Assembly (NCBI RefSeq): GCF_002270355.1
Contig: NZ_NJFZ01000010.1
Coordinates: 62,007-126,006 of the forward strand
Direction of reading: 5' to 3'
DNA from: Flectobacillus sp. BAB-3569
Lineage (GTDB): Bacteria; Bacteroidota; Bacteroidia; Cytophagales; Spirosomataceae
DNA: 64,000 bases
The notes beneath the pieces are model-generated. The model had not been told where the DNA came from, made no database searches, and worked only from the letters and a program-made list of their open reading frames with translations. Below are positions 43,191-46,676 of this stretch, one piece after another; the stretch's first letter is position 1, and every line of letters begins with the position of its first letter. Both the position numbers and the translations under genes were made by a program.

Positions 43191-44150
43191 TTAAGCATTT
43201 TTGCGTTCGATAGCTTTAAGTGCTTTTTCGACGATGCTAGCAGCATTTAAGCCGTATTTTTCCATCAATTGTGCAGGAGTTCCAGACTCACCAAATGAAT
43301 CGTTTACACCTACGTACTCAAGAGGTACATAGTGATGTTGTACTAATACTTGCGCAATTGAATCGCCCAAACCACCATTTACTTGGTGTTCTTCAGCCGA
43401 TACAGCACAGCCCGTCTTTTTAACAGAGGCTAAGACAGCTTCAACATCCAAAGGTTTAATTGTGTGAATATTGATGATTTCAGCATTGATACCTTTTTCA
43501 GCTAAGATTTCACCCGCTTGGATAGCTTCCCAAACCAAGTGTCCTGTAGCAAAGATACTCACATCAGTACCTTCATTTACCATCCATGCCTTACCAATTT
43601 CGAATTTTTGGTCAGCAGGAGTAAATACTGGAACTACTGGACGACCAAAACGCAAGTAAACAGGACCTTCGTATTCAGCAACAGCGATAGTCGCAGCTTT
43701 TGTTTGGTTAAAGTCGCATGGGTTGATTACAGTCATACCTGGAAGCATTTTCATCAAACCGATATCTTCCAAGATTTGGTGAGTAGCACCATCTTCACCC
43801 AACGTCAAACCTGCGTGCGAACAAGCGATTTTAACGTTTTTGTTTGAATAGGCTACCGACTGGCGAATTTGGTCATATACACGACCAGTACCAAAGTTAG
43901 CAAAAGTTGTAGCGAAAGGGATTTTGCCACCGATTGTCAAACCAGCTGCAATACCCACCATGTTTGCCTCAGCGATACCTGTTTGGAAGAAGCGCTCAGG
44001 GTTTTCTTTAATAAAAGCGTCTAGTTTAAGAGAGCCAATTAAGTCAGCACAAAGTGCTACGACATTTGGGTTGGTTTGTCCCAACACCTGCATACCAGCT
44101 CCGAAACCTGAGCGAGTATCTTTTTTCTCTGTGAATGTGTATTTTTTCAT
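43191..44150 (-). CDS. Transketolase, C-terminal (Pyr and C-domain) subunit
   Basis: The 319-residue protein covers the pyrimidine-binding domain and C-terminal domain of a split transketolase: GFGAGMQVLGQTNPNVVALCADLIGSLKL at the start, PERFFQTGIAEANMVGIAAGL with the glutamate that activates TPP, and EEHQVNGGLGDSIAQVL near the end. Split transketolases usually sit next to their N-terminal subunit. Here that subunit is 1.67 kb away, separated by an ATPase and a TOPRIM-like gene on the same strand. Confidence 0.92.
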   Translation of the reverse strand: MKKYTFTEKKDTRSGFGAGMQVLGQTNPNVVALCADLIGSLKLDAFIKENPERFFQTGIAEANMVGIAAGLTIGGKIPFATTFANFGTGRVYDQIRQSVAYSNKNVKIACSHAGLTLGEDGATHQILEDIGLMKMLPGMTVINPCDFNQTKAATIAVAEYEGPVYLRFGRPVVPVFTPADQKFEIGKAWMVNEGTDVSIFATGHLVWEAIQAGEILAEKGINAEIINIHTIKPLDVEAVLASVKKTGCAVSAEEHQVNGGLGDSIAQVLVQHHYVPLEYVGVNDSFGESGTPAQLMEKYGLNAASIVEKALKAIERKNA

Positions 44151-44160
44151 CTTCCTATTT

Positions 44161-44745
44161 TTACTCGATTGCTTTTATCGAGGCACATTGCTTTAGTTTT
44201 GTTAAAAAATAATTTGCACTAGGGCAATTGGGATGGTTAGCTGCATTTTCAATGGAGAAACCTGAGTTAATCATTTTTTGAGCGAGCCTTTTCTTTTCAT
44301 TTCTCCCAACAAGTCCTCTGTTAAACTTTTCCAAATATTTATTTCGAATAGTTTCAAAAGGAATATCTTCGTTTTCAGGATATTCAAATGAATAATCGCC
44401 TTGAAAAATCTGATTCATTGCGGAATTATCTGATAGAAACCAAGACTCAATCTGCTTAACAGCTACGATAATAATTTGATTTTCAGATTCAGTAATCCTC
44501 AATCGAGTTTTAGTAATACATTGGTCTTGGTCAAGGTCTGTTAAAATAAAAATAACTGAGGCACCTTTTTTGAAAAGATTCTCCCTGTGACTTTTAATAT
44601 TGTGGGGTAATAGGTTGCCATTTCCTTGGACATTGATTACGCCAACAGAATGAAGTCCGAGTTGATTCAAAAGAGCCTTAAAATTATTAGATTCTAAAAT
44701 GAAAAGCTCAGTATAACCTTCACAAATAAAACCAATGTTTACCAT
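44161..44745 (-). CDS. TOPRIM-like (DUF4276/RloB-like) protein, second gene of cassette
   Basis: The 194-residue protein starts VNIGFICEGYTELF, with the EGxTE motif of DUF4276/RloB-type TOPRIM-like proteins; the glutamates would be the first metal ligands. The second motif is FILTDLDQDQC (DxD). EKKRLAQKMI follows in a basic C-terminal part. Such domains are nucleases or nucleotide-binding modules in OLD-, AbiL- and PARIS-like systems. It overlaps the ATPase gene by 7 bases, so the two are translated together, and it ends 10 bases before the transketolase C-subunit start. Family assignment is by motif only. Confidence 0.72.
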   Translation of the reverse strand: MVNIGFICEGYTELFILESNNFKALLNQLGLHSVGVINVQGNGNLLPHNIKSHRENLFKKGASVIFILTDLDQDQCITKTRLRITESENQIIIVAVKQIESWFLSDNSAMNQIFQGDYSFEYPENEDIPFETIRNKYLEKFNRGLVGRNEKKRLAQKMINSGFSIENAANHPNCPSANYFLTKLKQCASIKAIE

Positions 44746-45764
44746 GGCAACCCACCTCCTAAGGTGTTAGTCAGCCATGCTTCATCCATACTTAAACCAT
44801 TAAAATCTTCTCCTTTGAACTGCTTTATTTTTGTTTCACCCTTGATTTTATTTACCGTGATTATTTCATCAGGACTGAGTTGAGACACCAATGATTGCGA
44901 ATGGGTGTTGAGCCATATATAATGACCTTTTTCTTCACAAGCATTTCTGAAAAAATTAACCATCTCTTTAATAACATCGGGAGTAAGTCCATTTTCAGGT
45001 TCTTCAATACATAAAAACTGAGGTTCATCTGATTGAAAAACGGCTGTTAAAAGAGCGAGAATATTGTATGTACCGTCTGAGATAAGTTCTTTAGTGAAAT
45101 ATTTTGGTGAAAATCTTTCTTTCACTATTAGAGTATCTGTTCTACTTAAATCAGAAGATTCAATAAAAACATCGTCAAATTCAGGTATAAATAATCTTAA
45201 CCAATCAAGAATTTCTTCTTTTTTAGATTCTTCTTTTAATATCCTTTTTAAGACTTTTTCAAGATTGTTTGCAGAAAAGGATAAAGTTAAATTATCAGAA
45301 TAATTGACTTTCTGTTTATCCTTATTTTTAATGAATAGTCTTGAAAATTGTTTTTTATAGAAATTATTCTTAGAAATAACCTTCTTGATTGGGTGGTCAT
45401 CAGAAAGCTGTTGAAACTCTTCACTTTGAAGTGACAAAGCATTTTTTTCAATATCTTTTTCCGAAAGGTTATTAAGATATTCTAGAAAAGCTTTTTCTTC
45501 AAATGAGTCAATTTTCAAACTCCAGTCATCTGTTTCAAAAGAAAATATACGAGGATGATCTATTTTCGATATATTGTCTTCTCCACCAAATAAACCAATA
45601 CCATTAGTTTCATCACGATACTTAAGATAAAACTCCAACGCCTCAAAAATATTACTTTTCCCTGACCCATTTGGACCAACAAAGACCGTAAATGGATTGG
45701 GTTCAATGATTTCTAAATCTGCAATAGATTTAAAATTTTTGATATGTAATTTTTTGATTTTCAA
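44739..45764 (-). CDS. AAA family ATPase (AAA_21/RloA-like), first gene of cassette
   Basis: The 341-residue protein is a RecF/SMC-type ABC ATPase. KLHIKNFKSIADLEI precedes Walker A GPNGSGKSN (about 30-38). ISDGTYNILALL is in the signature region, FLCIEEPENGL is Walker B and THSQSLVSQL the H-loop. The C-terminus LGGGLPW resembles ATPases paired with DUF4276 proteins. Hand-counted GC of three 60-base rows (45181, 45241, 45361) is 27% overall, against 38% in a row of the neighbouring transketolase gene. Together with the TOPRIM-like gene it looks like a transferred two-gene module. Confidence 0.82.
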   Translation of the reverse strand: MKIKKLHIKNFKSIADLEIIEPNPFTVFVGPNGSGKSNIFEALEFYLKYRDETNGIGLFGGEDNISKIDHPRIFSFETDDWSLKIDSFEEKAFLEYLNNLSEKDIEKNALSLQSEEFQQLSDDHPIKKVISKNNFYKKQFSRLFIKNKDKQKVNYSDNLTLSFSANNLEKVLKRILKEESKKEEILDWLRLFIPEFDDVFIESSDLSRTDTLIVKERFSPKYFTKELISDGTYNILALLTAVFQSDEPQFLCIEEPENGLTPDVIKEMVNFFRNACEEKGHYIWLNTHSQSLVSQLSPDEIITVNKIKGETKIKQFKGEDFNGLSMDEAWLTNTLGGGLPW

Positions 45765-45781
45765 AGTGATAAAAGTTTAAT

Positions 45782-45821
45782 ATTCACTCATTCAGTAAAT
45801 CACTAATTCACTCAATGATTA
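45782..45821. repeat. Octad repeat array at the cassette/transketolase junction
   Basis: Five 8-base units in register: ATTCACTC, ATTCAGTA, AATCACTA, ATTCACTC, AATGATTA. The last unit contains the stop codon of the transketolase N-terminal subunit. The units resemble the ATTCACA heptamers elsewhere in the window. Confidence 0.7.
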
Positions 45822-46676
45822 ATAGTCGCCTAAAGTTTCAGGCAATTGCGCTAATGCTGCTGCCAACTGTTCGTCGTTTGGAGCAACACCGTGCCACTTG
45901 TGCGAGCCCATCATGAAGTCAACACCTGCACCCATTTCTGTGTACATCAATACCATGATTGGTTGACCATTTCCTGAAAGCTCACGAGCTTGATTCAAGA
46001 CGCTTACTACATCAGCCATATCATTACCTTTCATGGTAATAACTTTCCAGCCAAATGCTTCGTACTTAGCACCCAAATCACGGTTGTTCATAACCTTTTC
46101 AGTTGGACCGTCGATTTGCTGACCGTTCAAGTCAATAAATGCTACTAGGTTGTCAACTTTGTGGTGTGGAGCATACATGGCTGCTTCCCAAACTTGACCT
46201 TCATTTTGCTCACCATCACCCATCAAGCAGAAAACCAAAGAATTGTCGTTATTCAATTTCTTTGCTTGTGCTGCACCAATAGATACTGATAAACCTTGAC
46301 CCAATGAACCTGAAGCAATACGAATACCTTCAAGATGTTCGTGCGTTGTTGGGTGACCTTGTAAACGAGAATTTAATTTACGGAATGTTGCGAGTTCTGC
46401 TACTGGAAAATACCCTGCACGCGCCAACACTGAATAAAATACTGGAGAGATGTGACCGTTTGACAAGAAGAACAAGTCTTCGCCAGTGCCGTTCATATCA
46501 AATACTCTTTTACCAGATTCGTCAGATTTTAGCGTCATTTGGTCAAAATAAAGCCCTACAAGCAAATCTGTACAGCCTAATGAACCACCTGGGTGACCAG
46601 ATTGGCATGCATGAACTTGTCTCACAATGTCACGTCTTACTTGTGAAGCAACTTTCTGTAATTCTGAAATTTCCAT
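45819..46676 (-). CDS. Transketolase, N-terminal (TPP-binding) subunit
   Basis: The 285-residue protein is the pyrophosphate-binding domain of a split transketolase: GHPGGSLGCTDLLVGLYF with the early histidine, and the TPP/metal motif GDGEQNEGQVWEAAMY at about 153-168, ending in HKWHGVAPNDEQ. Together with the C-terminal subunit it transfers two-carbon units in the pentose phosphate pathway. It is the promoter-proximal gene of the interrupted unit. Confidence 0.92.
   Translation of the reverse strand: MEISELQKVASQVRRDIVRQVHACQSGHPGGSLGCTDLLVGLYFDQMTLKSDESGKRVFDMNGTGEDLFFLSNGHISPVFYSVLARAGYFPVAELATFRKLNSRLQGHPTTHEHLEGIRIASGSLGQGLSVSIGAAQAKKLNNDNSLVFCLMGDGEQNEGQVWEAAMYAPHHKVDNLVAFIDLNGQQIDGPTEKVMNNRDLGAKYEAFGWKVITMKGNDMADVVSVLNQARELSGNGQPIMVLMYTEMGAGVDFMMGSHKWHGVAPNDEQLAAALAQLPETLGDY

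Follow-up and report, generated by a model that had tools for sequence, protein, structure and literature searches.

Several described prokaryotic immune systems bear comparison with the locus analyzed here. According to the title of a reference given in PMC12988326, the HEC candidates were found embedded in immune systems, a circumstance of their discovery rather than a molecular trait, and several of them, including HEC-06, are said to show antiviral activity in a 2024 preprint cited in the same source, where the account of antiviral HECs, in the portion accessible to us, does not name HEC-01. In PARIS, AriA and AriB follow a sensor/effector logic, as outlined in an excerpt of PMC12409363, and for the OLD family nucleases we follow the class definitions given in the accessible part of PMC10568477. 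For the defense hotspots of Pseudomonas aeruginosa, transduction and recombination have been suggested as one route, again according to an excerpt (PMC10250203). Our searches of the open-licence literature revealed no description of a fixed family-wide address, conserved ends or a hypervariable segment for HEC-01, and nothing on a defense locus at transketolase; the name HEC-01 retrieved only papers that are apparently unrelated by title, and DUF4276 retrieved none.

Here we examine a pair of genes located between the two transketolase genes of Flectobacillus sp. BAB-3569, within a window (the whole stretch of DNA analyzed) of 64,000 nucleotides. We consider this pair to be, probably, a HEC-01-type two-gene immune module that, in Spirosomataceae-type bacteria, resides at a single chromosomal address between the split transketolase genes and the core of which is exchanged by recombination.

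The two-gene cassette and its protein products

All four genes of interest are on the minus strand of the window, in the order tktN, ATPase gene, TOPRIM-like gene, tktC. The N-terminal and C-terminal transketolase subunits (45819-46676 and 43191-44150, respectively) are both recognized by Pfam (Transketolase_N, E 3.7e-45; Transket_pyr, E 1.9e-39, and Transketolase_C, E 4.5e-28). Between them are encoded an ABC/SMC-head ATPase of the HEC-01A type (44739-45764; 341 amino acids, with a TTG start) and a TOPRIM-fold protein of the HEC-01B / DUF4276-like type (44161-44745; 194 amino acids). The ATPase gene is separated from tktN by a 54-base spacer (45765-45818, delimited by junction comparison), the two cassette genes overlap by 7 bases (44739-44745), and a gap of 10 bases (44151-44160) precedes tktC. 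The initial annotation, made from the sequence alone, described this arrangement correctly, including the coordinates, the overlap and the gap, as well as the lower GC content of the pair, which is 0.27-0.29 at 45000-45749 compared to 0.39-0.44 mainly within the transketolase genes (500-base windows). The GC dip coincides partly with a hypervariable segment of the ATPase (codons 46-150; 45315-45629, defined by entropy and DNA identity), which we propose to be the recognition region. Given that the same arrangement recurs across the family, it is not due to chance.

The ATPase contains the previously noted Walker A (GPNGSGKSN) and Walker B (FLCIEEPENGL) motifs, along with an LISDG motif and an H-loop. 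Among the best 25 of its 111 PADLOC matches, the top one is HEC-01A (PDLC04176; E 9.3e-92, residues 2-341), and there are weaker matches to AriA (E 5e-27) and AbiLi (E 7.6e-25). Its AlphaFold model (pLDDT 85.9, lowest at residues 71-120) matched retron, PtuA, SMC and Rad50 heads in a fold search, and the best profile match is to OLD (6p74). The ATPase is of the SMC/OLD type.

In the second protein, the EGxTE and DxD motifs noted earlier are present as EGYTE (E9, E13) and DLD (D70, D72); we take EG..E and D.D to be the acidic motif of the TOPRIM fold. The top PADLOC match is HEC-01B (PDLC04191; E 7.2e-58, residues 1-187), all 14 PADLOC models listed for this protein belong to HEC-01, and HEC-01 models match each of the 61 aligned TOPRIM sequences. 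The match to DUF4276 (PF14103; E 1.6e-5, 25.6 bits) falls under the Pfam gathering cut-off of 30.2, and this family is matched by 50 of the 61 sequences at E <=1e-3. E9, D70 and E100 are among the residues that are invariant in the 61-sequence alignment and E13 is retained in at least 90% of the sequences; D72 is invariant in an alignment of 24 sequences and absent from both the invariant and the >=90% lists of the larger set. The AlphaFold model (pLDDT 93.7) has the OLD TOPRIM domain 6nk8 as its sole PDB match below E 1e-3 (E 1.2e-4, TM 0.49), and the alignment profile compared with solved structures yielded nothing below E 0.08. Judging from the predicted structure, this protein has the TOPRIM nuclease fold together with the acidic residues.

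The affiliation with PARIS, AbiL or RloA/RloB that the initial annotation had proposed is not supported, given that the two HEC-01 models are the best matches of the two proteins. Membership in PARIS was rejected because neither DUF4435, presumably the AriB partner of PARIS, nor AriB itself was listed among the Pfam and PADLOC matches of the TOPRIM-like protein; membership in AbiL or RloA/RloB was rejected because AbiLii and RloB are likewise absent from these matches. Among the 61 TOPRIM relatives, one matches RloB and six match AbiLii weakly. Assignment to Gabija was rejected as well since the transketolase genes enclose two separate genes rather than a single ATPase-TOPRIM GajA accompanied by GajB. 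Among the Pfam families named at the outset, AAA_21 was recovered for the ATPase (E 1.7e-22), DUF4276 was found below the cut-off, and DUF4435 and RloB were absent from the matches listed.

Occupancy of the transketolase site and copies elsewhere

Of 150 sampled genomes of the family, one per species, 54 encode a homolog of the TOPRIM-like protein at E <=1e-5. The search listed 57 places, of which 55 were used, the two dropped being second fragments of broken copies in G001 and G118. All 55 share a contig with a transketolase subunit located within about 1.4 kb; both subunits flank 45 of these homologs, and the other ten have one subunit on the contig among the matches listed. A profile built from 61 sequences, about 24 of them from addresses other than transketolase, matched 58 of the 150 genomes at E <=1e-6, with strong matches only at the transketolase-linked places already found and five weak matches (E 6e-8 to 6e-7) off the transketolase contig, in G006, G025, G144, G052 and G137 (for the last of these, the transketolase contig is not among the matches listed). 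In a phylum-wide sample, 8 of the 395 genomes gave a match to profile A1 at E <=1e-5, including three that belong to this family.

The 138 tktN-tktC intervals that were resolvable among the matches listed (150 for each subunit, out of a larger total) include 91 called empty, 35 with the ATPase and TOPRIM genes, 10 with a Uma2 gene in addition to these two, one with Uma2 only and one with a 57-residue remnant of the ATPase. The 45 intervals counted as occupied include the broken copies of G001 and G118, and in most intervals little of the 1.5-2.5 kb is left outside the named genes. At least 23 changes of occupancy are required on a quick transketolase tree, 17 of these being forced by the starred branches, compared to an average of 38 for shuffled occupancy labels, none of which gave as few as 23 in 500 shuffles. 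Occupancy is clustered on the transketolase tree but labile. G093 is occupied and G117 is empty although their transketolase rows are identical. In the sister genome of the window, G053, in which the transketolase proteins are 99% and 100% identical to those of the window (95.8% and 94.7% DNA identity for tktN and tktC, respectively), the site is empty and consists of 114 bases that are unlike the spacers of the window. By contrast, the 54-base spacer travels with the cassette: it is identical in Flectobacillus longus G037, nearly identical in G001 and unrelated to the sequence at the empty site of G053.

Relics of the cassette were sought in the 43 of the 93 unoccupied intervals that were long enough. 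Three cases are clear, namely the ATPase start in G004 and G003 and the TOPRIM end in G078, which shows that the cassette was lost in these genomes; five more were barely above 60 shuffles and were not counted.

Several features of individual intervals were observed in the course of this survey. A gene for a Uma2-family putative nuclease lies between tktN and the ATPase gene in 10 of the 138 intervals, and in G144 a Uma2 gene is the only one in the transketolase interval (L158-L167 and L203 for these two situations together; e.g. L095:3367-3957). In G001, which belongs to the genus of the window, an ATPase match free of stop codons adjoins a broken TOPRIM gene (L012, L044, L191). In G118 (L168), a short open frame, absent from the other junctions compared, is present at the start of the interval preceding the ATPase gene. 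G036 possesses two closely related transketolase loci, one occupied and one empty (L158, L222), which might reflect a duplication or a mixed assembly. The record of Flavobacterium sp. SUN052 (L096) has an occupied site and transketolase genes that cluster with those of a Cytophagales record, which may be due to transfer or to misnaming. Transposition was considered and finds little support, no target duplication being visible by eye in 11 junction groups.

The distribution of the pair bears on the possibility that it is a toxin-antitoxin-like or selfish addiction module, in which the ATPase would restrain a toxic TOPRIM nuclease, with persistence rather than defense being selected. The organization as an overlapping two-gene unit with a nuclease-like partner, the labelling of Pfam AAA_21 as putative AbiEii/Type IV TA and the retention of the ATPase beside a broken TOPRIM gene in G001 are all compatible with this explanation. 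However, the cassette is frequently absent or present as a relic, a situation that addiction should hinder, and the hypervariable segment of the ATPase suggests diversifying recognition. We therefore regard addiction as an unlikely explanation and favor a resident immune module.

Copies at other addresses were assessed among the best 80 of 126 named relatives, a selection that favors near kin and hence copies located at transketolase: 43 are at transketolase, 7 adjoin ftcD, 2 are near ffh and 28 are elsewhere. The seven, in other Bacteroidota-type records, place the pair directly upstream of ftcD (L131, L141, L099, L107, L117, L121, L125). At two ftcD loci, an amidohydrolase gene is located upstream, which we take for hutI, the Pfam match being to amidohydrolase only. 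The idea that another family, probably Saprospiraceae given a 71% ftcD match, has ftcD as its fixed address finds little support: the gene is present in 4 of 199 genomes there, and ftcD was seen at one of these four loci, with flanks of about 1.5 kb. The notion of one address per lineage, drawn from 7 of the 37 named loci outside transketolase, is accordingly a lead only.

The possibility that the pair is tied to transketolase, either guarding or regulating the enzyme or reading the pentose-phosphate status, and is kept in the operon for this reason, would account for the location of all 55 family copies at transketolase and for the order ATPase, TOPRIM, tktC in the displayed loci that contain these genes. 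This is nevertheless improbable in the light of the relatives at other addresses (37 of the best 80, including those at ftcD) and of the 91 empty intervals. Furthermore, six genomes (G090, G097, G115, G135, G139 and G142) carry, beside the occupied transketolase pair, a second pair of another clade that is empty, with a spacer of 12-18 bases (L268, L272, L281, L283, L284, L289).

A scan of neighbors covered 20 proteins from 16 loci that were picked by eye, so that the following defense-related neighbors come without a background rate: L156 is located between DNA methylase and ResIII protein genes (Type III restriction-modification), L154 between HsdR-like and N6_Mtase protein genes (Type I) with Fic nearby, L118 adjoins AccI-type restriction-modification genes and L138 adjoins Wadjet JetD. 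The remaining scanned neighbors are metabolic or housekeeping genes (ftcD, ffh, tex, phosphoglucomutase, polysaccharide). A relative with 36-37% identity was found in 11 E. coli plasmid records, nine of which are predicted to be conjugative, and an AAA family ATPase is among the features under the match in these plasmids. Carriage by phages finds little support, the matches being one phage record in which 37% of the protein is aligned and a partial match in one viral contig.

Allelic diversity and conserved ends

The nearest named relative of the window by transketolase is F. longus. In comparison with F. longus G037 in 75-base steps, identity is 82-100%, and mostly above 92%, outside approximately 45626-45030, compared to 24-84% within this stretch of the ATPase gene (45030-45626, limits approximate). 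In the same stretch, G037 is 78-94% identical to the more distant G001, and given this similarity, the window and G037 hold different alleles.

The codon comparison included 42 of the 45 occupied intervals (L168, L169 and L191 were left out), which gives 861 pairs. These pairs share genomes and so are not independent, and with one genome per species all comparisons are between species. In all 12 closest pairs (sum of tktN and tktC identity of at least 1.76), ATPase codons 46-150 show 39-53% DNA identity, and the TOPRIM body (codons 1-160) shows 46-58% in nine of these pairs and 89-97% in the other three. The ATPase segment is held in common, at >=0.60, in 5 of the 861 pairs; the best match, between G031 and G133, reaches 0.82, yet the TOPRIM bodies of these two are at 0.47. 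The cassette is thus mosaic. Three Runella genomes in which the transketolase genes are near-identical and the Uma2 gene is 99-100% identical carry three ATPase/TOPRIM alleles. In the inter-genus pair G036/G066, the cassette parts (0.88, 0.94) are more alike than the transketolase genes (0.83, 0.88). The trees are also discordant, with Robinson-Foulds (RF) distances, out of 78, of 72 between transketolase and TOPRIM, 64 between transketolase and the ATPase C-part and 56 between TOPRIM and the ATPase C-part; none of the foreign trees passes the AU test (5000 resamplings, for a program that asks for 10000).

The two ends of the cassette behave differently from its core at silent sites, as measured by fourfold-site identity in 108 same-genus pairs. 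At the left end, which comprises ATPase codons 1-45 and includes Walker A (45630-45764), the values for codons 1-15, 16-30 and 31-45 are 0.73, 0.78 and 0.70, and the overall value is 0.739 compared to 0.48-0.52 for transketolase and 0.363 for the ATPase C-part; past codon 45, identity is 0.26-0.47 up to the end of the gene, even where about 90% of the residues are alike. At the right end, the last 14 TOPRIM codons (44161-44205, with the stop codon) are at 0.87 and the remainder of the TOPRIM gene is at 0.27-0.48. The corresponding values for tktN and tktC are 0.45-0.54, with 0.64 for the last 19 tktC codons.

By genus, the left end, transketolase, ATPase C-part and right end (here codons 161 onward) are at 0.744, 0.44-0.46, 0.334 and 0.602 in g4 and at 0.878, 0.48-0.72, 0.416 and 0.800 in g16. 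In g31, the left end is at 0.666, transketolase at 0.53-0.55 and the ATPase C-part at 0.392, and the right end, at 0.421, is not raised over transketolase. Between genera, the left end is at 0.452 compared to 0.33-0.36 for transketolase. When copies located at transketolase were compared with 24 of the 37 named copies from other addresses, the left end fell to 0.20-0.28 and the right end to 0.00-0.32 (few sites); the pooled Proteobacteria copies gave 0.71 for the right end, on 21 sites. These low values indicate that codon usage or protein constraint alone is insufficient to explain the left end, with the proviso that the copies from other addresses come from other families, so that address and ancestry are confounded in this control. 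From these patterns, we infer a pool of recombining alleles at the transketolase address, with homologous recombination as the probable route of exchange.

An ancestral pair that was inherited vertically in the transketolase operon, with fast divergence and many losses, fits the wide spread in the family, the relics in G004, G003 and G078 and the TOPRIM tree, which is compatible with one origin at transketolase. Such a history has little probability given that the cassette and transketolase trees disagree, that the ends exceed transketolase in silent-site identity, that three alleles accompany near-identical transketolase genes in Runella and that the cassette parts of G036 and G066 are more alike than the transketolase genes. 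A single recent insertion of a defense cassette into this genome, as the initial annotation had it, agrees with the empty site of the close relative G053 but is refuted as a full account, given that in F. longus G037 and G001 the pair occupies this site too, with an almost identical left junction, and that the occupied intervals, 45 of 138, reveal a recurrent resident whose history includes numerous gains or losses as well as swaps of alleles. What holds of that proposal is that a candidate-family ATPase/TOPRIM-like pair, absent from the sister genome, is placed in a metabolic operon, and that the comparison of related transketolase loci reveals presence or absence even where the transketolase proteins are identical; the pair is neither unique to this genome nor universal.

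Proposed mode of action and comparison with known systems

The reading we favor, a resident immune module with an exchangeable core, assigns a defense role to the pair on the strength of the candidate family and of some distant relatives located near restriction or Wadjet genes. A reported role of an archaeal OLD-family ATPase in the cell cycle counts against the defense role (an excerpt of PMC12796447). By analogy with PARIS and the OLD systems, the ATPase would be the sensor and the TOPRIM protein the effector. In the resting state, the ATPase would restrain the TOPRIM nuclease; upon infection, the ATPase might sense a product of the invader via the hypervariable segment that follows Walker A, whereupon the released nuclease would cut DNA or RNA and stop the phage or the cell, as reported for AriA/AriB. 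Homologous recombination in the flanking transketolase genes could remove the module and bring it back, and resident alleles could swap the core, either from ATPase codon 46 to the 3' end of the TOPRIM gene or the ATPase segment alone. Such swaps would occur between the two conserved ends, so that many alleles could be kept in one place without an integrase.

A bolder version, which we put forward tentatively as possible rather than probable, is that this is a dedicated allelic-exchange immune locus that functions without a mobile element and keeps a sensor/nuclease pair at a single address in a metabolic operon throughout a bacterial family, with the two short in-frame ends serving as recombination handles that shuffle recognition segments and effector bodies between species; other lineages may each have a separate address, e.g. 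beside ftcD. The swapping of polymorphic toxins or of hsdS follows a comparable logic.

Searches for defense genes mostly target islands and mobile elements; the candidate module described here appears to exist family-wide as a polymorphic allele in a core metabolic operon, with states that are empty, occupied or swapped at a single definable site. These states provide a natural allelic series for mapping what the ATPase senses and a test case for immune diversity that possibly spreads without integrases. They also suggest a search rule, namely to look for variable pairs inside split housekeeping operons, given that island searches may miss such modules.

Among the known systems, HEC-01 (Hma-embedded candidate, PADLOC-DB) is similar in that both genes match over nearly the full length, the ATPase gene precedes the TOPRIM gene and the pair is embedded in another operon; the host operon here, however, is that of transketolase rather than Hma or another immune system. 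PARIS also consists of separate ABC ATPase and TOPRIM genes, and the AriA model matches the ATPase, but the partner in our case is HEC-01B/DUF4276-like, with no AriB among the 14 listed models. The OLD family nucleases (Class 1, Gabija GajA and the retron-linked Class 3) share the matches to 6nk8 for the TOPRIM domain and 6p74 for the ATPase, whereas at this locus the two domains are encoded by two genes that have the transketolase genes as direct neighbors. Finally, as at the transketolase site, conserved flanks enclose variable immune genes in the cDHS1 and cDHS2 hotspots of P. aeruginosa; the number of distinct systems there exceeds 30 and 24, respectively (median sizes of 26 and 6 kb), whereas the transketolase site harbors one type of system, in the form of alleles, within a metabolic operon.
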